NCBI GenBank assembly: GCA_022702935.2
Contig: JAKIML020000092.1
Coordinates: 1 to 64,000, forward strand
Reading direction: 5' to 3'
Length of the DNA stretch: 64,000 bases
From: Bacillota bacterium
GTDB lineage: Bacteria > Bacillota > Clostridia > DSM-8532
This document shows, in pieces, positions 3,049 to 14,897 of this stretch. The number at the start of each line of letters is the position of its first letter. Position 1 is the stretch's first letter. The notes beneath the pieces are model-generated. The model ran no database searches and was not told the origin of the DNA. It was given only the letters and a program-made list of their open reading frames with translations. The position numbers and the translations under genes are program-made.

Positions 3049-6000
3049 GTTTACCGTCCCCTCGCGGGTACGAATTGCGACGGCTATGGACCAGGCTATC
3101 ATGGACAGCAAGGGGTTTCCGTCCCCTCGCGGGTACGAATTGCGACTCGAGAAAGCGCTTATACCCCTCTTTCCTTGTCAGTTTCCGTCCCCTCGCGGGT
3201 ACGAATTGCGACTAAGACAGAATCAGTTCCTCTCGGAGAATTAAAGTTTCCGTCCCCTCGCGGGTACGAATTGCGACGAATGCAATGATATGCTTTTCGT
3301 TTATCGTCCTCGTTTCCGTCCCCTCGCGGGTACGAATTGCGACGAATTTCTTGACCAGTCCAAGATCCTTGCCCAGAGTTTCCGTCCCCTCGCGGGTACG
3401 AATTGCGACGTATTACACTAGGCCCCCGTTTTATGTCTGTATGGTTTCCGTCCCCTCGCGGGTACGAATTGCGACGATTGCAACAGCGGTAATCGCAACA
3501 GCGGTGATTGGTTTCCGTCCCCTCGCGGGTACGAATTGCGACTCGGTACGACTGATGGGCAGATAATGAAGTTTGATGTTTCCGTCCCCTCGCGGGTACG
3601 AATTGCGACGAGGTCAAACGAGAGGACATGCGCAGGATGGTTCAGTTTCCGTCCCCTCGCGGGTACGAATTGCGACGAGGCCGAACGTGATAGTATTTCT
3701 GGCTATTTAGAGTTTCCGTCCCCTCGCGGGTACGAATTGCGACTGAGTGAGGATGGGAGCAGTAAAGACGCATAAGCGTTTCCGTCCCCTCGCGGGTACG
3801 AATTGCGACAGGATGTATGCGACATATTAGACTTAAGCAATAGCAGTTTCCGTCCCCTCGCGGGTACGAATTGCGGCGCGGAAGTGTGGCATATGGCGAT
3901 ATGGATAGCAAGTTTCCGTCCCCTCGCGGGTACGAATTGCGACACACAAACTATGGTGCTGCGAGTTTATTAAAAATGTTTCCGTCCCCTCGCGGGTACG
4001 AATTGCGACGCGATATTGGAGTTGGAGATGCCGGAGAGTTGCGGTTTCCGTCCCCTCGCGGGTACGAATTGCGACGATTACATAGAATTAGAACTTTGGT
4101 TCCCATTACGTTTCCGTCCCCTCGCGGGTACGAATTGCGACTCTTCAGTTCCATATGCTTCATTATTAGATAAGAGTTTCCGTCCCTCGCGGGTACGAAT
4201 TGCGACGAAAGTAAATTTTATTTGCCTTAAACGGCAGGAAAGTTTCCGTCCCCTCGCGGGTACGAATTGCGACTCGGTACGACTGATGGGCAGATAATGA
4301 AGTTTGATGTTTCCGTCCCCTCGCGGGTACGAATTGCGACCCGTCATACATAGGGTGGGCATCGGCACGCTTGAGTTTCCGTCCCCTCGCGGGTACGAAT
4401 TGCGACCTGTTTCATTAAGTCCTTTGTATTTTTTAACCTTGTTTCCGTCCCCTCGCGGGTACGAATTGCGACTACAACGGAGCCCTCGGTACCGAAACCG
4501 GGAGTTGTTTCCGTCCCCTCGCGGGTACGAATTGCGACTATATGGAGTGTCAAGCACACACAAGCTTAATGGTTTCCGTCCCCTCGCGGGTACGAATTGC
4601 GACTCTATCCCTAAGTCTGTAAGTAAGGTTGTGAGAGGGTTTCCGTCCCCTCGCGGGTACGAATTGCGACTTACACGACGAACCATATTATATAGCAATA
4701 GAAGTTTCCGTCCCCTCGCGGGTACGAATTGCGACGCATATATTGACAGCGCAAAAAAGACAATTGTAGTTTCCGTCCCCTCGCGGGTACGAATTGCGAC
4801 GCATCATCCGTAAGACTTGACGAGGACCTAATGGTTTCCGTCCCCTCGCGGGTACGAATTGCGACTCCCCCTTAAATTTAACAAGGGGATGTTAGATATG
4901 TTTCCGTCCCCTCGCGGGTACGAATTGCGACGCTAGAAGAGGCAGCCCAAATAATATATAGCAATAGTTTCCGTCCCCTCGCGGGTACGAATTGCGACTA
5001 AAGCCCCTGTCGGCACTATTGCGCTCTGGAATGTTTCCGTCCCCTCGCGGGTACGAATTGCGACAATACCATAGTGATTTAATCTAATATCAAGGCGGTG
5101 TTTCCGTCCCCTCGCGGGTACGAATTGCGACTAAAAAGTGGAATGACACTTAATGATGTTAATAGGTTTCCGTCCCCTCGCGGGTACGAATTGCGACGTA
5201 TTCCACAATGTATAAATCTAAGTTACCTATCGTTTCCGTCCCCTCGCGGGTACGAATTGCGACAAGTATTAATAAAAGGCATTAAAAGTAAAGCAGGGTT
5301 TCCGTCCCCTCGCGGGTACGAATTGCGACACGATAGATGGCATAGAGTTATTCTCAGCAAAAGGTTTCCGTCCCCTCGCGGGTACGAATTGCGACCAGAT
5401 TGGGTTGGTAGTGGAATAAAAAACTCTGGTTTCCGTCCCCTCGCGGGTACGAATTGCGACTACAGGGACGGGCAACTATTGTCCGCCACCTGGGAGGTTT
5501 CCGTCCCCTCGCGGGTACGAATTGCGACGAAAATGCTGGAAACCTTGATTATAATAAAAATGTTTCCGTCCCCTCGCGGGTACGAATTGCGACTTTATCA
5601 GACTATAGACGCTCTCGGAAAAGTCAGGTTTCCGTCCCCTCGCGGGTACGAATTGCGACACGGCAACAGGCGGCAGTATCACCTTTAATAGTGTTTCCGT
5701 CCCCTCGCGGGTACGAATTGCGACCCAAAAGGTCGAAGAAGGTAGCCGCCTTTACTTTGTTTCCGTCCCCTCGCGGGTACGAATTGCGACCACACGCGCG
5801 CACAGAACGCAATCGCCTGGTCATGTTTCCGTCCCCTCGCGGGTACGAATTGCGACTTAGCGGTGAAGTGGTGACAACGGGTTGGTTAAGTTTCCGTCCC
5901 CTCGCGGGTACGAATTGCGACTACAGAGGGCGGCACAGTTGCTTGATTTTCTGAAGTTTCCGTCCCCTCGCGGGTACGAATTGCGACAAAACTTTACCGA

Positions 6001-6052
6001 GTTACCCGCCCAAAAGGTCGGTTTCCGTCCCCTCGCGGGTACGAATTGCGAC
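3049..6052 (-). CRISPR. CRISPR array, 46 repeats and 45 spacers, type III-A repeat
   Basis: I counted 46 copies of a 32-base repeat. On the plus strand it begins GTTTCCGTCCCC and ends GAATTGCGAC. Spacers are 33-36 bases and the period is about 66. On the minus strand the repeat ends GGGGACGGAAAC, matching the end of known type III-A repeats and giving the 8-base crRNA tag ACGGAAAC, so I assign minus-strand transcription with the leader at the right. The outermost left repeat (3049-3081) has an extra A, as expected at the leader-distal end. The copy at 3846 has G for A near its end, and the copy at 4176 lacks one C. Spacers 3543-3577 and 4274-4308 are identical. The cas operon lies just to the right; no cas1 or cas2 is in the window. 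Confidence 0.98.
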
Positions 6053-6306
6053 TGCCTATATGTAGAACTTAGATGTATCAAGGCTTTTAAACCCCAAAAT
6101 GCGGATGACAAATTTCTATTAATTTTTCAAGGAGCAGAACTACATAAAAACTTCAGAAACCAGCTTGTAATACCAGGTGCGAATAACCCGGCAAATTTAT
6201 GTGCACTTGGGATTCGCACCTGGATGAGGATTACTTGACAGGGGCAAAAAACCATACATCTGTCAAATAGCATATCTTTTAATAAAACATCCAATCCAGC
6301 AAAGGA
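6053..6306 (-). promoter_or_regulatory. Presumed CRISPR leader with two inverted repeats
   Basis: This 254-base AT-rich stretch lies between csm6 and the leader-proximal repeat. It holds a perfect 12-bp inverted repeat (CCAGGTGCGAAT and ATTCGCACCTGG, about 6173-6224) and a 7-bp one (TTGACAG and CTGTCAA, about 6234-6266). Neither has a T run, so they are not obvious terminators. I see no convincing -35/-10 pair. Calling it the leader rests on position and on repeat orientation. Confidence 0.55.
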
Positions 6307-7668
6307 TTAATCCTGCTCTGAGAATGGCGATTTTTTTGGAATGGGAATATCGTCAATCGCCCTATTCAGTTCATCATAGGAGTTCCAATAGTCTTGCGGG
6401 AATGATATGCAACAGCTCAAAAAGTCCTGTAGCATCTTCAATATGTCTGCTGTACCCAACCCGACTTTTTCTTTTATCCATTCTTCTGTGACAGCAACAA
6501 TTTCATGGGCTGCAATATTGCGTACATCACCCTCGAAATTTCTCAGTCGGCGTGCAAGATAAATTACTTTTTTTCTTCCCCTGGCCTGAATAAACGGATA
6601 CAGTACAGCAGCACTGGGCTCCTTATCCCTATATCCTTCTTTAAAAGCTTCATCGAGAACGATCTGAAGTTCTCTTGGTAGTGCATCTCGGGCGAGAATC
6701 GGTCGCCTTTTGCCCCCTCTGCCATCAATCCTATAATAACTTTCAATGGCTAAGGCGCACTGTTTTTCCAAGTAAAGCTCAAACAAGTCGGTTAAAACGG
6801 GTGAAACAGCACGAACAAAGTCAGCAAGCTCCCCCTTGGCCAGTTTTAACTTAAGCGAGAGAATATACTCAAAGCAGATCATGGCTTTTTTTGAGTAATC
6901 CTCACTCCTGATTGGCAAAAGATCATATCCGGCAGCTTTGGCTAACCTGTCTGCCTCCTCTATCTTGAGCATATTCCTCAGTTCACCTGCCTTTACAATA
7001 TGGATCATTCTGGGATCAAGATATTCCCTGATGGTTTCGGCCACTAACGAAGCAGCCTTATAATCGTATGCAGCAGTAAGACTGGAGACAAGGTCCCGCT
7101 TCAAAAGCGCATTCAACATCTTATTGTCCGGTTTCAGGATGCGTTTTGTGCGGGTTTCCTCATAGTTGTCCCTATTCTTTATCCATTCTTCCTCAATGTT
7201 ATAGCTCTCGCTAACAGGAGAACTGGTATTTGATTTTTTCTCAGGTCCTGCTACCTGTAAGGCAATCACTGGTCTTTTGCTTAAACTACTGACTAAATTC
7301 AAAGCACTTTTCATTTGAGTCGTTCCAGATGATACATTTAGCAGAATTTTACTCTTCGGATATTTGTTATGGATCTGCTCAATAATTACTGTAAACTCAT
7401 CATAAAATATATCGAATTCATGTGCATCAGTTAAATCTGGCCTCTTAATTTTTTCCACCGAACAGGTTAAGCCAAGTGCCTGACAAAGTTTATTAATATA
7501 AACTTCGTATCTGTTATCCTTGGCATCAAAATCACACATTTCCTTCGACAAAAAAAGGTAAACTTTCTGCGGTTTATAATACCTGCAAATATGTATCATG
7601 GCACCGTCATGATAGCCACGCGTTGGATCAGAAAAACCCACAGGTGAGAATAAGACATACTCACTCAT
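6307..7668 (-). CDS. csm6: Csm6, CARF-HEPN cyclic-oligoadenylate-activated ribonuclease
   Basis: The 453-residue protein has an N-terminal CARF domain (LFSPVGFSDPTRGYHDGA near the start and the LNVSSGTTQMKS ligand-binding loop about residues 110-125) and a C-terminal helical HEPN domain with R383-NIAA-H388, the Rx4H nuclease motif. Csm6 homodimers bind cyclic oligoadenylate made by Cas10 and then cut RNA non-specifically. The start at 7668 follows AGGAGG; the longer reading from 7686 would include that ribosome binding site. It is the last gene of the csm operon and the one nearest the array. The catalytic motif looks intact. Confidence 0.93.
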   Translation of the reverse strand: MSEYVLFSPVGFSDPTRGYHDGAMIHICRYYKPQKVYLFLSKEMCDFDAKDNRYEVYINKLCQALGLTCSVEKIKRPDLTDAHEFDIFYDEFTVIIEQIHNKYPKSKILLNVSSGTTQMKSALNLVSSLSKRPVIALQVAGPEKKSNTSSPVSESYNIEEEWIKNRDNYEETRTKRILKPDNKMLNALLKRDLVSSLTAAYDYKAASLVAETIREYLDPRMIHIVKAGELRNMLKIEEADRLAKAAGYDLLPIRSEDYSKKAMICFEYILSLKLKLAKGELADFVRAVSPVLTDLFELYLEKQCALAIESYYRIDGRGGKRRPILARDALPRELQIVLDEAFKEGYRDKEPSAAVLYPFIQARGRKKVIYLARRLRNFEGDVRNIAAHEIVAVTEEWIKEKVGLGTADILKMLQDFLSCCISFPQDYWNSYDELNRAIDDIPIPKKSPFSEQD

Positions 7669-7698
7669 ATAACTCCTCCTATGCATCAGTTTATTGAT

Positions 7699-8457
7699 TC
7701 ATGCCTGCTGCTTCGTGATCTGATTTATACGGCATCCACCCATCCCCAGAGCAGTTTTGATGCCAATGCCTGCATACTCGCAGAAGGACAGAATCACTCC
7801 TGCAAGACGAGCAAGCTGAGCAGGTCCGTGAATAAATAGGGACAGATTCCCTCTATAGCCCAAAATTCTGCTGCCATCCAGAGAATACTGCGCCGAACGC
7901 AATGCATATTTTGAAATAGAAATATTGGTAGCGATTTGAGCCAGAACTTCCGGGTCATCAAGGTCATATTCACGGGAGTAAGCGCTGAAGCGCGCACTTA
8001 AGCTTTGAACGATCAATTCAGAGGTCGGAAAGAGCACATACCTGCCGTTGCTTTTATGGGTACAAGGTGTGATAAATTCAAGCAGATATCTTCTGCAAGG
8101 TTCATCTGTATTAAAGAAATGGCCTACATAATCGCGCTCAGTTAGCGCTTTCCGCTCAGTACCGATTATACTCAGACGAATGTTTTTACTCTTAATATAA
8201 ATCTCCGTCAACGGCATAACAGCCTTGATAATCTGTTCAGATACCTTATCATCCCAAAGTCCGATATGCCAATCCAGCCTGTTTTCATCAAGCGGATTGA
8301 CATACTGGGAAAAAGGTCTGAGCTTAATATCATGAAGCTCCTGAGCCATGTCCTCAGGAAGAAGCTCCACTAAAGCGCCATGCAATAAGGAGCCCCAGTG
8401 ATAGGATGGTTTTTCTTCTTTTGTGCTCACACAATGCAAAACGATCTTTTGAAGCAT
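7699..8457 (-). CDS. cas6: Cas6 CRISPR repeat endoribonuclease
   Basis: About 252 residues with the two-ferredoxin-fold RAMP organisation of Cas6 and the glycine-rich C-terminal loop YAGIGIKTALGMGG (final 20 residues), which is diagnostic. It cuts the repeat in the pre-crRNA to leave the ACGGAAAC 5' tag. I prefer the ATG at 8457 (26 bases after csm5, behind GGGGG) over one at 8526 that overlaps csm5 by 44 bases without a ribosome binding site. A His near the N-terminus of the shorter form (HCVSTKEE) could be the general acid; that is inference. Confidence 0.9.
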   Translation of the reverse strand: MLQKIVLHCVSTKEEKPSYHWGSLLHGALVELLPEDMAQELHDIKLRPFSQYVNPLDENRLDWHIGLWDDKVSEQIIKAVMPLTEIYIKSKNIRLSIIGTERKALTERDYVGHFFNTDEPCRRYLLEFITPCTHKSNGRYVLFPTSELIVQSLSARFSAYSREYDLDDPEVLAQIATNISISKYALRSAQYSLDGSRILGYRGNLSLFIHGPAQLARLAGVILSFCEYAGIGIKTALGMGGCRINQITKQQA

Positions 8458-8482
8458 ATGCGACCCCCGCAGCCAGACATCT

Positions 8483-9691
8483 TCACACAACTGATTTGAT
8501 ACTGATGGTGCATTTCCCCATTTCATAATATTGATTATTAAATTTTGTAGCTTTAAACATATGGGGTGAAACCTTAAACCTGGTTAAATCCCTTTCATGG
8601 GCATGACCCGAAAACTGTTTTGACAAGATGGTTCCAGAAAGCTTCACCGCCCTCTCCCTGTCCTTAACAAGCGGATAGATCAAGGTTTTGCTTACATAAC
8701 CTGAGCCACCGCCTAAAATGACAGGTATTTTCTCGGACCAGTCCAGGTCTTCATTTTTTATAGCGTCAGGAAGATGTGAGAAATACCTTTTGAAGCTCTC
8801 ATGCTGTTTTTTATAAAAGCTCTTAAGAGCATGCTTAATAAATTCTATATCAATACCAACTTCTTTGAGAATGGTATGATCCAGCGTAAGAGAAAAACTC
8901 ACCCTTGTATTGGGCATCAGACATTCCCTGTATGTTGAAATAACTTCTTCTGAGCCATCCGGTCTGATATCATATTTACCGCAAATCGTCAGGCGCTCGC
9001 AGCTGATGGGTTGGCTGTCGCTGATTTGAATTCCTCTCATAAAATCTTTGAGTATTTCATTATTGGACAAATTATCGTCATCATCTTGTCGGGCTTCACT
9101 TTCTTGGTTGCCCTCATGGTTATGTTCCTGAGAAAAAGGTATATCGAGTTTGTGAAAAATCTCCTCACTTAATTTATTTGATTCTGTACTCATATATCTG
9201 GTTCTATCATAAAAGTTTTGAGCCGCTTCCTCCATTCCATTAACGATACCTTCAAAGCAGCCATTTTCAATAAGCTTGGCAGCAATTGCTGTACGTAAAA
9301 CACCTTTTAAGCTGGAACCGGGTATGTAAGGGTTTCCATCAGGGCCCTTTATAAAAGTTGAAACCCCTCTGAATTTCTCATGGTACATAACCTCCCCGGC
9401 ATGGATGGAGTATGCGGTAAATTGGCAATAATCTTCCATTCTGACATGATGATTGGACAGGAAAAAGATCATATTTCTCTGAGAAGGATCGAGCATATAA
9501 TGCTCATAGGCTTCAAGGAGGGACCGCTTTTTTAAGTAATTTATAAAGCGGCTGAAGTCAACCATATGGATAATGCCGTTTTTTTTATCAAAAATATAAT
9601 CCTTCTTGGTCAACATTCGCCCAGAGCCGATAAATATCGGTGACTGCGTTTCAAGTTCTATCTGAAAGTTTTCAAGATGTCCAAGCTTCAT
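8483..9691 (-). CDS. csm5: Csm5, type III-A RAMP backbone protein
   Basis: The 402-residue RAMP protein shows the Csm5 pattern: an N-terminal IELETQSPIFIGSG strand-loop and the later YIPGSSLKGVLRTAI glycine-rich/basic loop that packs on crRNA. Csm5 caps the 3' end of the crRNA in the Csm complex and helps crRNA maturation. The start at 9691 overlaps the csm4 stop by four bases (ATGA), a standard coupling signal, so the in-frame ATG at 9724 is rejected. An acidic, low-complexity insert (ESEARQDDDDN, about residues 195-205) is probably a surface loop. Confidence 0.92.
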   Translation of the reverse strand: MKLGHLENFQIELETQSPIFIGSGRMLTKKDYIFDKKNGIIHMVDFSRFINYLKKRSLLEAYEHYMLDPSQRNMIFFLSNHHVRMEDYCQFTAYSIHAGEVMYHEKFRGVSTFIKGPDGNPYIPGSSLKGVLRTAIAAKLIENGCFEGIVNGMEEAAQNFYDRTRYMSTESNKLSEEIFHKLDIPFSQEHNHEGNQESEARQDDDDNLSNNEILKDFMRGIQISDSQPISCERLTICGKYDIRPDGSEEVISTYRECLMPNTRVSFSLTLDHTILKEVGIDIEFIKHALKSFYKKQHESFKRYFSHLPDAIKNEDLDWSEKIPVILGGGSGYVSKTLIYPLVKDRERAVKLSGTILSKQFSGHAHERDLTRFKVSPHMFKATKFNNQYYEMGKCTISIKSVV

Positions 9692-10629
9692 ACTCTTAAC
9701 CCCGCAAATAATGTTTTCCCGCAACGCCAGACAGGATGAGCTCCACCACTGGAAACATCGAAGATCTCACCACTGAATCTTCGTTTAAAGCATGATCCAG
9801 GCAACAGCATGTAAAGGGTGCGTTTCTTTCGTTGCATTTGCGAATAGGTTTCGGATCTTACAAATCCTCCGCGTCTGGCCGCCATATACCAACCGTCTGA
9901 AAGGATTTCATCAAGCTCATGATCCGAAGGCAAAGCTGTCCCCAACAACATTTGATAATTAGCGTCAGTATCAGCAAGCATCTCCTGCAGTGGGGCGGGT
10001 ACATCTTCTTTAATGACATTGAACTTTCCCAGCCCCGATGACTGCTTTCCACCCATACCGGATAGTCCAACAAAAGAGAGCAACTGCTCAAATAAAGCAA
10101 GACTGCCGCTATCTTTACATTCTGCAATAACATAAAGCCCGGCATCCTTCGCAAAATTCCAATACGCCACCTGATATGGCTGGGGCTCCTCTCTTATGGA
10201 AGCCCTTGTGCCCGATGTCAAAGCGCCAAAAAAGCATTTGAGTTCTTCCGGCACTATTTCAGCCTGGCCGGATATGTGTCCAAGGTATTCGTCAAACGCT
10301 GAAAGGGGTATGTACTCAATGGACTTGAATGCTTTTCTGTTTTCCGGATTCCCTTCCTGTTTTAAATTCTTGAAATATATCATCGGCTTTGGGAGGTAGT
10401 ATTCGTCCCTGCAGAAAGGCAACGCATCCGATATAACGATCCTTTCATCCTCAAACCACTGAAAGATCTCTTCGGGCTGGCCACCATTTTGGGCGTATTC
10501 ACAACAAAGTGAGGAAAATATGGTGTCCGAATGGATGGTCATTCTTCCATCATCCAAGGAAGGTCCGCCATGCTCGGTTCCAATATGAAGCCCCGTAGCG
10601 AAATGGAGCTTATACAGAGAATACGGCAT
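9688..10629 (-). CDS. csm4: Csm4, type III-A crRNA 5'-tag-binding RAMP protein
   Basis: A 313-residue RAMP protein beginning YKLHFATGLHIGTEHGGPSL and containing the IHSDTIFSSLCCEYA helix typical of Csm4/Cas5-like subunits, with the GMGGKQSSGLGKF glycine-rich loop near residue 205. Csm4 binds the 5' tag of crRNA and contacts Cas10. It overlaps csm3 by 20 bases and csm5 by 4, so it sits firmly in one translationally coupled operon. No unusual residues were noticed. Confidence 0.92.
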   Translation of the reverse strand: MPYSLYKLHFATGLHIGTEHGGPSLDDGRMTIHSDTIFSSLCCEYAQNGGQPEEIFQWFEDERIVISDALPFCRDEYYLPKPMIYFKNLKQEGNPENRKAFKSIEYIPLSAFDEYLGHISGQAEIVPEELKCFFGALTSGTRASIREEPQPYQVAYWNFAKDAGLYVIAECKDSGSLALFEQLLSFVGLSGMGGKQSSGLGKFNVIKEDVPAPLQEMLADTDANYQMLLGTALPSDHELDEILSDGWYMAARRGGFVRSETYSQMQRKKRTLYMLLPGSCFKRRFSGEIFDVSSGGAHPVWRCGKTLFAGLRV

Positions 10630-11299
10630 ACCCTTCTACTCCCTTCAATATGTCTAATAGCTCAACGGCATCCACAGGGCATTGACCATCCTTAACCTCC
10701 AATGCAAAATCATAAAATGCAACCTTCCCGTAGCCGCGGCTTCCATGGCCGCCAAGATAGTCCATGGATACAAGCTTTAAAGCCTCAGCAATATTTTCAA
10801 AGTCCTCTTTGATTTCATCACCCTTTTCCATGGTATAAGCCAGCGTGATTGCGAACTCGGCACCGCGTACCACACGTTCAATTTGTCGTGGGTTTGCTTT
10901 GGCGGTTAATCGATCAATAACGTTTTCAAACTTAATCTCGGTTATACCACCCTTCTTTTTTAGAAACTCTCCGTTGATTAAGAAGGCATCAGAAAACTGT
11001 AACCTAGCACTTTTTGAGTATTCTTTTTTATCCTTCTCTACAGTCGAACCAAAAAGACGTTTTATCTCCTCCGGGTCATCAGAAATTTCAGGTAATAAAT
11101 AATCATTCTCAATTTTCTTGACCAGCAGGGTTCGCATTTTTCCTTTTATGCTGGAACCAGGAAGCATTGGCTCTCCGGTTAATGCATCACGGATTACCAC
11201 ACTACCCACCGCACCTATGGCTGAAAAAACCGAGGAACCTCCAATATGCATGCCTGTGAGCACTTTCATCTTAAATCTGATAACGATTTTTCCGTACAT
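10610..11299 (-). CDS. csm3: Csm3 backbone subunit with Gly in place of catalytic Asp32
   Basis: The 229-residue Csm3 is recognisable from GMHIGGSSVFSAIGAV, the PMLPGSSIKGKMRTLL loop and the C-terminal GGHGSRGYGKV loop. Csm3 forms the repeated crRNA-binding filament and cuts target RNA at 6-base intervals through a conserved Asp in the motif GAxDSPVxRD (D32 in S. epidermidis, D33 in S. thermophilus). Here the motif is GAVGSVVIRD: residue 32 is Gly (codon GGT, 11204-11206), one A-to-G change from GAT. The rest of the protein looks normal. By analogy with D32A mutants, target cleavage should be lost while RNA binding and Cas10 activation remain. The start follows AAGGAGG. Confidence 0.95.
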   Translation of the reverse strand: MYGKIVIRFKMKVLTGMHIGGSSVFSAIGAVGSVVIRDALTGEPMLPGSSIKGKMRTLLVKKIENDYLLPEISDDPEEIKRLFGSTVEKDKKEYSKSARLQFSDAFLINGEFLKKKGGITEIKFENVIDRLTAKANPRQIERVVRGAEFAITLAYTMEKGDEIKEDFENIAEALKLVSMDYLGGHGSRGYGKVAFYDFALEVKDGQCPVDAVELLDILKGVEGYAVFSV

Positions 11300-11314
11300 A
11301 ATGAAAATACCTCC

Positions 11315-11791
11315 TTAGTCTTTTCCGCCATGATATCGGTGGTAGGCTACAAGAGCCTCCATATAGCGGGAAAAATGAATAAATCTCGCACGACTGTCAC
11401 CAATAAAGGAAATCCAATCCAACAGCCTGGCCTTTTCAACGAAGGGCCGGATAATTTTCGGTTCCCGGCCACATTCATAGACAAGCCGTATTCTTAAGCT
11501 GGTAATGCGATCCTGTATTTCATTGCTCAGCTTATCATCAGACTGTCTGATAATATCATTATAGATATCAGTAACCATGGAGAGAATGTTCCTTATTTTT
11601 GAGGTTGAAAATTTTTTACCATCCTCCTGGCTTCGCAGTTCTTGTATGACCGTATCTGCATAAGATACATAAGCATCCGGTTTCTCAAAAAGTTCCTGAC
11701 TAATATTTTCAGTGCTTTCATAGTAAGCCGGCTGATGCTTTGACCTGTATTTATCGTTTCTGTTTTCTCTGTAATTCCTATGATAGCTCAT
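11315..11791 (-). CDS. csm2: Csm2, small helical subunit of the type III-A complex
   Basis: About 158 residues, highly charged and helical, with a basic N-terminal tail (SYHRNYRENRNDKYRSKH) and the Csm2 core (STSKIRNILSMVTDIYNDI...RIRLVYECGREPKIIRPF). Csm2 lines the groove between crRNA and target RNA as the Cas11-type small subunit. I set the start at 11791, after AAGGAGG-like bases; this overlaps the csm1 stop by 14 bases. The N-terminal tail is longer than the core family and may add nucleic-acid contacts. Confidence 0.9.
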   Translation of the reverse strand: MSYHRNYRENRNDKYRSKHQPAYYESTENISQELFEKPDAYVSYADTVIQELRSQEDGKKFSTSKIRNILSMVTDIYNDIIRQSDDKLSNEIQDRITSLRIRLVYECGREPKIIRPFVEKARLLDWISFIGDSRARFIHFSRYMEALVAYHRYHGGKD

Positions 11792-14204
11792 CGGTATCTC
11801 CCTCCTTATTCTCACGCATTGCATAAATATAGAGCATGATAGCGGTTATCAGCTGTTTTCTGTCATCGGGATGCATAACCCAGCCATGTATTTTGACGGA
11901 GAAATCTTTATAAACCGATTTGAGTTTTTCACTTTTGTCGTCCGGCTGATGTCGCGCAAGCATATAAGCTAAACGTGCGATATTGATTCTTTCTTTTTCA
12001 GCCTGCTTCAATAAATACAGGATTTGATAAAGAAATGAACTACCATAGTCTCCGCCGGCGTCAAAAAGGGATTGAACCGTTTGATACTTCTCTCCCAATA
12101 CCTTATCGATAAAAGTCTTCCAGGAATAGGTATGATTATCGATGAGAAACCCCTCTTCAGGCTCCAGGCCGAACAGAGAGATAGCGTTTTTTGCACCTCC
12201 CGCATGTTTATGCTGCTTTGCTCTGTCTTCAAGATCTGCAGTTTCCTTTGCCATCAGACTGATAGGGTACTTTACCGGGAAAAGCGAAAAGCCTGCCGAA
12301 AGGGAAAGAGCGCCATCCGTGTATCTGTCAAAGGCCTGTTGAATGTCAACGGCCGCTGAAAGCACCTCGTCCCATGCACCGACAATGAATAGGTCATCCC
12401 CGCCTGAATAGACAATGACCAGATCTCTCCTACCTGACTTTTTGGTCAATGAGTAAACAGGTCGCTCCATCAAATGGTTAATATGATACTTAAAAAACAT
12501 GGAAAGGCTTCTGGATAAGGTTGAGGTTCTGGCAATCGAAACATACCTGAATTTATTTTCGGGTTCCGTTTCCCTGACAAAGCCTTTAATGAAGGAGGCG
12601 CCAAGATTATCCACATCAGCTCTTAAAACCGCTATTCTCTTAATGCCTTCCGCACATTTGGCCAGTTCTTCAAAGGTCTTCAGAGAACCATCGTCATTCT
12701 TTGAGGCATAATCCCCCATCCATAGTCTGGTTGCCTTTGGAAGACCGGATTGGAAGGTATTTTTGCTGTAGATATGGACAACTTTCTGTGGGTCTCTACA
12801 CAAAAGTTCCTTTACATCGTTCAGAGCCATAGGTTTTAGGTATAATGGAACTTCGCCAGAAGAAATAAGCGGCAGGTACTTGCCTGCAGGCTTACATGAC
12901 ATTACGGTAAGCACGAAATCATCCCGGACAAGTTCATTTGAGATATCTGCAAGAGATGAGCACATCTCACAAATATTATCCTCACCAAAATTATTCAATT
13001 GGCTTGATGAACCGCAAACAGAACACTCCCTTTCTCCAGCCTCCATCATACCGCCATTGAGCATTCTGATATCATCTGCTGAATACCTGCGAAGCTTCAT
13101 CTCTGAAATCTGAGCTGAAACGCTACGGAAGATACTAAAATAGCTTTCCGAATCGCAGGTCCTTGTCATAAATTCATTGGCCGAGCATGACTGCAATCCG
13201 TAGGCTATGAATAAGCGCGTGCCAAATCTCTTCATCAGCCGTCTATTGATGGTTTTCATGGCCTGTTCCACGTTAGAGAGTATTTTCTCTGTATTTGGCA
13301 AAAGGATATAGGCATGACCTCCCCCTGCATAGAGAAGATTTGCTCTGGACAGAGAACTGAGGTTCAGAATTTCATTGACAATATGCTCAATCATGATTTC
13401 CAGGTAGAAGGAACGGGCTCGCAGCCCTTTGAGCGCGCCTTTGGAGGATATGGTGTAGATAAACTGCTGGATGCCGGAGGTGTCAAGGGATAAAAGGCAA
13501 AAAACTTTTTCATCGAAAAAGTTTTCAATCTGATAAAATATCTCATCCCTAAAATTGGTTATACCTTTATTTTCTAGGTAAAGAGCAATACAGGCAGCCA
13601 GTGCTGCAGTTAGTTTAGAATGATCGTACAATGAGATGTCGGATACTTGCTCAGAATGCGCGTATGCAGGTATATAGGATGTACATGACTCTAATAGCTC
13701 TATTAGTGCATTAATGTACTCAGGTTTTAATAAAAAATACTGAAAATCCTTTTTAAATTTTTCTAGTAAACAAGAATAATGTTGATATAAGTTTGGATTT
13801 TCAATGATTTCAGGATAATAGATAATATTTCCAAGTGTACGAGGCCAGTATGACTTTATGCCTACTCTGTCATTAAGTAAGTTAAAAATTGACTTCAGCA
13901 GACGGCTCTCTTTAACATTATCTTGAAAGGCATCTACCAAATATGAATCTCCAACCATAGCAATTTGATCAGCTATAGACAGAATATAAGCAGGATTCCC
14001 TGGATCCAAATTAACTTTCTCCAACACCTGCCTATGGTGGTACTTGATACAATCAATAACTCGTGTGTCAGTAGTATATTGATTGATAAAGTCTGCACCT
14101 AAATTGCTATGTGTTTGTGTTTGGTCAGTACCAGTGAAACTGAAAATGTTCCCGATATCGTGTAACAAAGCCCCTAAGGTAACAATATGGACTATACTGT
14201 TCAA
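11778..14204 (-). CDS. csm1: Cas10/Csm1, HD nuclease and cyclic oligoadenylate synthase
   Basis: The 808-residue large subunit starts with an HD domain (LLHDIG, H15-D16), has a zinc-binding region (CSVCG and CEMC, about residues 394-416), and a catalytic palm with SGGDD (GGDD at 601-604). The HD site cuts ssDNA and the GGDD site makes cyclic oligoadenylate when target RNA is bound; both motifs are present. The start is a TTG at 14204 behind GAGGTG; no in-frame ATG nearby fits as well. The first 600 bases are clearly more AT-rich than flanking housekeeping genes, as is common for horizontally acquired CRISPR loci. Confidence 0.95.
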   Translation of the reverse strand: MNSIVHIVTLGALLHDIGNIFSFTGTDQTQTHSNLGADFINQYTTDTRVIDCIKYHHRQVLEKVNLDPGNPAYILSIADQIAMVGDSYLVDAFQDNVKESRLLKSIFNLLNDRVGIKSYWPRTLGNIIYYPEIIENPNLYQHYSCLLEKFKKDFQYFLLKPEYINALIELLESCTSYIPAYAHSEQVSDISLYDHSKLTAALAACIALYLENKGITNFRDEIFYQIENFFDEKVFCLLSLDTSGIQQFIYTISSKGALKGLRARSFYLEIMIEHIVNEILNLSSLSRANLLYAGGGHAYILLPNTEKILSNVEQAMKTINRRLMKRFGTRLFIAYGLQSCSANEFMTRTCDSESYFSIFRSVSAQISEMKLRRYSADDIRMLNGGMMEAGERECSVCGSSSQLNNFGEDNICEMCSSLADISNELVRDDFVLTVMSCKPAGKYLPLISSGEVPLYLKPMALNDVKELLCRDPQKVVHIYSKNTFQSGLPKATRLWMGDYASKNDDGSLKTFEELAKCAEGIKRIAVLRADVDNLGASFIKGFVRETEPENKFRYVSIARTSTLSRSLSMFFKYHINHLMERPVYSLTKKSGRRDLVIVYSGGDDLFIVGAWDEVLSAAVDIQQAFDRYTDGALSLSAGFSLFPVKYPISLMAKETADLEDRAKQHKHAGGAKNAISLFGLEPEEGFLIDNHTYSWKTFIDKVLGEKYQTVQSLFDAGGDYGSSFLYQILYLLKQAEKERINIARLAYMLARHQPDDKSEKLKSVYKDFSVKIHGWVMHPDDRKQLITAIMLYIYAMRENKEGDTDELS

Positions 14205-14438: not shown

Positions 14439-14897
14439 TTACCTTTCTAAATCAATCCAGTTTGTCTCAATGCTGCCGTCCTTGATCTCAATTCTCCCAA
14501 GACAGATGGGGAGCCTAAAGCGCCTGGGCCCCGCACTTCCGGGATTGAAATACAAAACGCTCTTGCGTTCTTCCTTCCTGGGGCTATGGGAATGGCCGTA
14601 AATCACCATATCAATACCGGCTGCCTTAGGCTCCAAATCCAGCATATCAATATTATGAATTAAATAAAGGAGCTTTCCTTCAACCTCCAATGCCTCGGTA
14701 AGGGGCAGTGTCATGGCCCAGCTGTCCTTGTCCACATTGCCTCGGACAGCATGGACGGGAGCTATAGCTTGTAACGCCTCTAAGATCTGAGGACTGCCAA
14801 TATCTCCGGCATGGATAATAAGCTGACTTCCCTTAAGTGCCTTCAAGGCGTTCTCATGCATTTTCCCATGGGTATCGGAAATCACGCCAATGACCAT
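14439..14897 (-). CDS. YfcE/MJ0936-type metallophosphoesterase
   Basis: The 152-residue protein carries the calcineurin-like metal-binding motifs in order: VISDTHG near the N-terminus, HAGDIG, RGNVD and IYGHSH, with a final NPGSAG. This is the compact YfcE family of two-metal phosphodiesterases, active on model phosphodiesters with uncertain natural substrate. The length matches the family. It starts 13 bases after the end of the upstream secreted-protein gene, so the two are probably cotranscribed. Confidence 0.88.
   Translation of the reverse strand: MVIGVISDTHGKMHENALKALKGSQLIIHAGDIGSPQILEALQAIAPVHAVRGNVDKDSWAMTLPLTEALEVEGKLLYLIHNIDMLDLEPKAAGIDMVIYGHSHSPRKEERKSVLYFNPGSAGPRRFRLPICLGRIEIKDGSIETNWIDLER

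Follow-up and report, generated by a model that had tools for sequence, protein, structure and literature searches.

A type III-A CRISPR locus with glycine in place of the catalytic aspartate of Csm3 and an intact Cas10 cyclase motif

Introduction

Can a type III-A CRISPR complex go on sensing RNA and signalling once the residue with which Csm3 slices the target is gone, and what would then end the signal? It is debated by what means type III signalling is switched off and whether this requires slicing of the target. The slicer aspartate of Csm3 coordinates the catalytic metal (PMC11026444); in S. epidermidis the D32A mutant of Csm3 has its cleavage abolished, while RNA binding and synthesis of cyclic oligoadenylate (cOA) persist (PMC9704408), and in S. 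thermophilus the slicer-dead version is D33A (PMC11040160). A Csm complex of S. thermophilus that has sliced its target holds the RNA ends and is active for more than 1 hour (PMC11040160). Three bacterial systems cope with a slicer-dead Csm3, whereas slicer-dead Cmr4 causes strong autoimmunity, lethal or growth-arresting, in Saccharolobus islandicus (PMC9368842), so the loss of slicing could be costly. Here we analyze a csm locus of a Bacillota bacterium in a window of 64,000 nucleotides (the whole stretch of DNA that was analyzed), for which a preliminary description had reported glycine at the catalytic position of Csm3 and proposed a complex that recognizes RNA and signals but leaves the target uncut, either as a natural signalling-only variant or as an early step in decay.

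Results

The locus consists of seven contiguous, full-length, and mostly overlapping genes on the reverse strand: cas10/csm1 (11,778-14,204), csm2 (Cas11; 11,315-11,824; TIGR01870), csm3 (the Cas7 backbone subunit; 10,610-11,299), csm4 (Cas5; 9,688-10,629; TIGR01903, 245 bits), csm5 (8,483-9,724; TIGR01899, 116 bits), cas6 (crRNA processing; 7,699-8,526; PF10040, above the cut-off), and csm6 (6,307-7,686). With cas10/csm1, csm2, csm3, csm4, and csm5 in one operon, it has the gene set of type III-A; the presence of csm2 separates it from variant III-A2, which has no identifiable Cas11, and the intact GGDD motif of Cas10 separates it from III-G and III-H, in which the cyclase is inactivated and the Cas7 aspartate lost. 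Of two usual but non-defining features of type III-A, it lacks the catalytic aspartate of Csm3, where it has glycine; with regard to the other, an active HD nuclease domain in Cas10, it keeps the metal ligands and has lost conserved basic residues.

Csm3 (229 aa) is the only one in the genome, and is intact save for this residue (TIGR02582, 210 bits; cut-off, 90 bits). Codon 32 (11,204-11,206, reverse strand) is GGT, in the context GAVGSVVIRD, and a phmmer comparison with the Csm3 chains in the PDB places Gly32 in the column of the catalytic aspartate, which reads GAVDSPVVRD in 9ash, GAVASPVVRD in 6xn3, and GAINSPVIKD in 6ifk (the latter two presumably being engineered slicer-dead versions); codon and alignment thus both bear out the replacement first reported. 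The rest of the protein departs little from its family: 50 of the 52 strongly conserved columns are kept, the exceptions being D32G and L177V, and as aspartate occupies position 32 in 94.6% of 93 homologues, D32G goes beyond what chance would lead one to expect. On the clade tree, the Csm3 branch is in proportion to those of the other genes of the operon and 0.77 times as long as the one for the remainder of Cas10 from this locus (inside the range of the relatives); most relative-rate tests of Csm3 against clade mates are non-significant (one of five gave p = 0.014). An AlphaFold2 model (pLDDT 86, pTM 0.83), whose best PDB matches are all Csm3, predicts a normal Csm3 fold. Judged by these comparisons, Csm3 is under normal constraint apart from residue 32.

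We saw no compensating acidic residue within 15 residues of position 32, nor an acidic residue near it that is unique to this Csm3, so the alignment offers no visible nearby substitute for the lost aspartate; another aspartate in the active site was among the findings that the preliminary description had named as overturning its reading. At position 129 the protein carries an aspartate, in contrast to the asparagine or serine of most clade mates, and Asp129 is common outside the clade, alongside Asp32; both Asp38 and Asp129 are found in Csm3 proteins that retain Asp32. Val34, a proline in most Csm3 proteins, was considered as a change tied to the loss of Asp32 and rejected: it also occurs in the close relatives L104, L107, and L110, which keep the aspartate, and is therefore unrelated to Gly32.

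It had been proposed that an alignment of close relatives might show Gly32 to be fixed; instead, all 11 of the nearest Csm3 relatives (63-71% identity) have aspartate, encoded by GAT or GAC. A wider set of 93 non-redundant Csm3 proteins (pairwise no more than 95% identical, each with a profile score for this family of 150 bits or more) has at residue 32 aspartate in 88, asparagine in two, glutamate in two, and glycine in one, that of the window. Replacement of Asp32, as read from this alignment, is thus not unique to the window (5/93); parsimony on a FastTree phylogeny of the 93 proteins gives five independent changes, and at least four other CRISPR loci have altered the residue independently. 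Seventeen other positions are invariant in the set, so the slicer residue, at 94.6% conservation, is more replaceable than many Csm3 residues. Gly32 was found nowhere else in genomes totalling 1288 (some counted repeatedly), ten Csm3-bearing plasmid records, viral contigs, and phage records, and the accessible literature, mostly non-subscription, described no natural Csm3 of type III-A that lacks an acid at this position. One further candidate, L128, with glutamine at position 32, was set aside, because its 65 bits are too low for a real Csm3.

The GGDD motif is intact in all five loci with a residue other than aspartate, including that of the window. Both kinds of Asn32 system, L084 and the plasmids of two isolates of the archaeon Halocatena marina (L195 and L237, which share the same Csm3 and Cas10 protein accessions), have a Cas10 without a recognizable HD domain and with GGDD kept, so other loci probably encode signalling complexes with neither slicer nor DNase. 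The HD dyad was counted as lost in two of three loci with a non-acidic residue 32, compared with 4 of 63 (p = 0.02 in a Fisher test; counted by eye, the loci being related), and with the glutamate cases added the same test gives p = 0.06; the statistical link is suggestive only. The two Csm3 proteins with glutamate (L083, 7,686-8,579; L085, 7,989-8,798) come from loci with intact HD and GGDD, and Glu32 may still be functional in them.

Cas10 (808 aa) has the GGDD motif at residues 601-604, as the preliminary description stated, in a palm domain recognized by PF22335 (123 bits). H15-D16 and all other HD metal ligands are also present, the Pfam HD score (34 bits) is like those of HD-intact relatives, and the predicted fold of the region is Cas10-like; the earlier statement that Cas10 keeps its HD domain stands in this respect, but the domain (residues 1-110) is also the fastest-changing part of the protein. 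Of 67 conserved Cas10 columns three are changed (K19N, R23F, and R87S), all in the HD domain, which is 35-39% identical to those of clade mates, while HD-intact mates share 51-82% among themselves; the palm regions have no such drop in identity. On the clade tree, the HD branch of the window has a length of 1.13 and the remainder of Cas10 one of 0.46, a ratio of 2.5, compared with roughly 0.4-1.5 in HD-intact relatives. The fast branch and the lost basic residues, set against the kept ligands and score, indicate a relaxed or altered, though not necessarily dead, HD domain, whose DNase arm is probably weakened. In a sister locus of the same family (L110, 1,666-4,077; 98% support), Cas10 has lost HD ligands, with glutamine for the histidine of the H-S motif and AN in place of AD, and does not reach the cut-off of the Pfam HD model; its Csm3 keeps the aspartate.

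The product of csm6 is a CARF-HEPN ribonuclease (TIGR02672, 398 bits; PF22208 and PF09659), with a CARF domain and an intact HEPN R-x4-H motif; R-N-I-A-A-H occupies residues 389-394 of the 459-aa ORF, and the R383 and H388 given earlier are obtained if translation starts at Met7. An N-T pair in the CARF domain matters for cleavage of cA6 by Csm6 (PMC10702470); the residues that match this pair in the solved Csm6 6tug (GNTDP) are F-S in the window and M-T or M-S in clade mates, so it is uncertain whether this Csm6 limits itself as its own ring nuclease. We identified no ring nuclease beside the locus. Rates of Cas10, Csm5, and Csm6 are raised on the window branch, and those of Csm3 and Csm4 are not consistently accelerated. 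A gene for a YfcE-like metallophosphoesterase (14,439-14,897) directly precedes cas10 in the same orientation; no homologue of it was found in the related loci.

A CRISPR array on the reverse strand, at about 3,050-6,052, contains about 46 copies of a 32-nt repeat, of which 43 are identical and three variant. Read on the reverse strand, the repeat is GTCGCAATTCGTACCCGCGAGGGGACGGAAAC; its end, ACGGAAAC, is the predicted 8-nt crRNA tag and resembles the tags of type III crRNAs. Repeat end and protospacer sense together suggest that the array runs in the reverse direction. The spacer at 3,213-3,245 matches at 31 of 33 positions the coding strand of a gene in MT837071.1, a human-gut phage contig, both mismatches being synonymous and at third codon positions; the ORF, from a reading of its sequence, appears to be terminase-like. 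Because it is the coding strand that is matched, a crRNA from the reverse strand would be antisense to the phage mRNA, the orientation needed for RNA targeting. Neither the repeat nor any of four 24-nt spacer cores matched viral contigs, and a search for self-targeting spacers within the 64-kb window gave nothing convincing. One identical spacer occurs twice in the array (3,515-3,582 and 4,246-4,313). The csm locus has no Cas1, and the only copy in the genome is found in a locus resembling type I-C, whose repeats differ, so the memory of the array may not be growing. That separate locus (L123, on contig C106) has Cas8c-, Cas7-, and Cas4-like proteins, Cas1, Cas2, and its own arrays.

Discussion

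We consider it fairly probable that this is a complete and likely working type III-A (Csm) locus, the complex of which has lost target-RNA slicing through the change of Asp32 to glycine in Csm3. A crRNA-loaded Gly32 complex would bind phage mRNA, and without slicing the bound RNA would remain whole; the Cas10 palm domain would then synthesize cOA, and Csm6, once activated, would degrade RNA non-specifically. The response would stop once the target RNA departs or is otherwise degraded and the messenger is removed. Loss or weakening of the HD domain would lower the cost of such long activation, which is consistent with the Asn32 loci. Binding and signalling without slicing, as first proposed, remains the best reading of a locus that has lost the aspartate, shows no nearby substitute for it, and in other respects (cyclase motif, Csm6 motif, operon, and array) looks intact. 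As for the claim that it is a natural signalling-only variant, the lost slicer and the kept cyclase agree with it, but this is not proven, since the HD metal ligands remain. The preliminary description also held that target dissociation or ring nucleases would have to take over the normal shut-off; the F-S pair leaves the part of Csm6 in this uncertain, and slicing is in any case not the sole off-switch (PMC11040160, PMC9368842).

Could the glycine instead have arisen recently, perhaps without selection, as a step towards loss of a locus that no longer protects? Its presence in one genome only, the eroding HD domain, the raised rates of Cas10, Csm5, and Csm6, and the lack of adaptation genes in the locus would all fit; but every ORF is intact, almost every conserved position survives, as do the motifs of the cyclase and of HEPN, Csm3 and Csm4 are not consistently accelerated, and 43 repeats are identical. 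We regard this course as unlikely, and the idea of an early step in decay meets the same kept positions and an unraised Csm3 rate. Decay of the whole operon is unlikely too, because Csm3 is constrained, the operon and the GGDD and HEPN motifs are intact, the array is near-uniform, and a spacer is antisense to phage. More improbable again is an error of sequencing or assembly hiding a GAT codon and an ordinary slicer: GGT and GAT are one transition apart, and the sister locus L110 has GAT in a near-identical context, but a random error at precisely codon 32 is unlikely a priori, and natural Csm3 proteins without the aspartate exist, one of them common to two Halocatena isolates. That slicing proceeds through another residue, such as Asp129 or Asp38, with catalysis owed mainly to the geometry of the RNA, seems to us very improbable. 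Type III slicing does resemble ribozyme chemistry (PMC11026444), and Asp129 stands where most clade mates have asparagine or serine; against this, both residues co-occur with Asp32 in other Csm3 proteins, and removal of the aspartate alone abolishes cleavage in the published systems considered here.

Within the preferred reading of a slicer-less complex, a further question is whether one arm or two remain. The HD DNase and the cyclase might both work, and both be prolonged, as the kept metal ligands and the HD score of 34 bits would allow; we find this possible but rather doubtful, given that the HD domain is the only region of Cas10 that has lost strongly conserved residues (K19N, R23F, and R87S), that its branch exceeds the one for the remaining protein by a factor of 2.5, and that the sister L110 has lost HD ligands. 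We tentatively propose, as an idea with a reasonable though not the better chance of being right, that the repeated loss of the Csm3 slicer to non-acidic residues in type III-A (glycine, asparagine, and asparagine) accompanies erosion or loss of HD with the cyclase kept, a convergence on pure RNA-sensing alarm complexes, of which this locus would be an intermediate stage.

The locus shares its gene set, Csm3 fold, GGDD cyclase, and Csm6 effector with the canonical III-A Csm systems of S. epidermidis, S. thermophilus, L. lactis, and E. italicus, which keep the slicer aspartate, in contrast to the glycine and divergent HD domain found here. Like the engineered D32A and D33A proteins, it has a small uncharged residue at the slicer position; those are laboratory mutants that bind RNA and activate Cas10, whereas Gly32 is natural. 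Catalytic Cas7 residues are likewise lost in III-G, III-H, and type VII, but III-G and III-H, predicted DNA cutters, have also lost the cyclase, and type VII uses Cas14, while the locus described here keeps its cyclase. Natural slicer-less Csm complexes make the shut-off question testable, that is, what replaces slicing as the off-switch; they could also show whether loss of the DNase makes loss of the slicer bearable, and could serve as ready-made, long-lasting RNA sensors.

The window can also be likened to the prophage III-B system of Vibrio metoecus with NucC, which signals by cOA and slices its target very slowly (PMC8682760), but in which Cas10 has no HD domain at all, the Cmr4 aspartate (D26) is kept, and NucC takes the place of Csm6. 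A III-A parallel to that system is L084, whose csm operon (5,210-12,362) adjoins genes for a phage holin, an amidase, and a GH25 lysozyme and is therefore probably prophage-borne; a DUF6602 gene follows it. In the Halocatena plasmid locus (L195, 2,187-12,195), a TIGR02221 CARF-type protein and a TIR-SAVED protein are encoded nearby.
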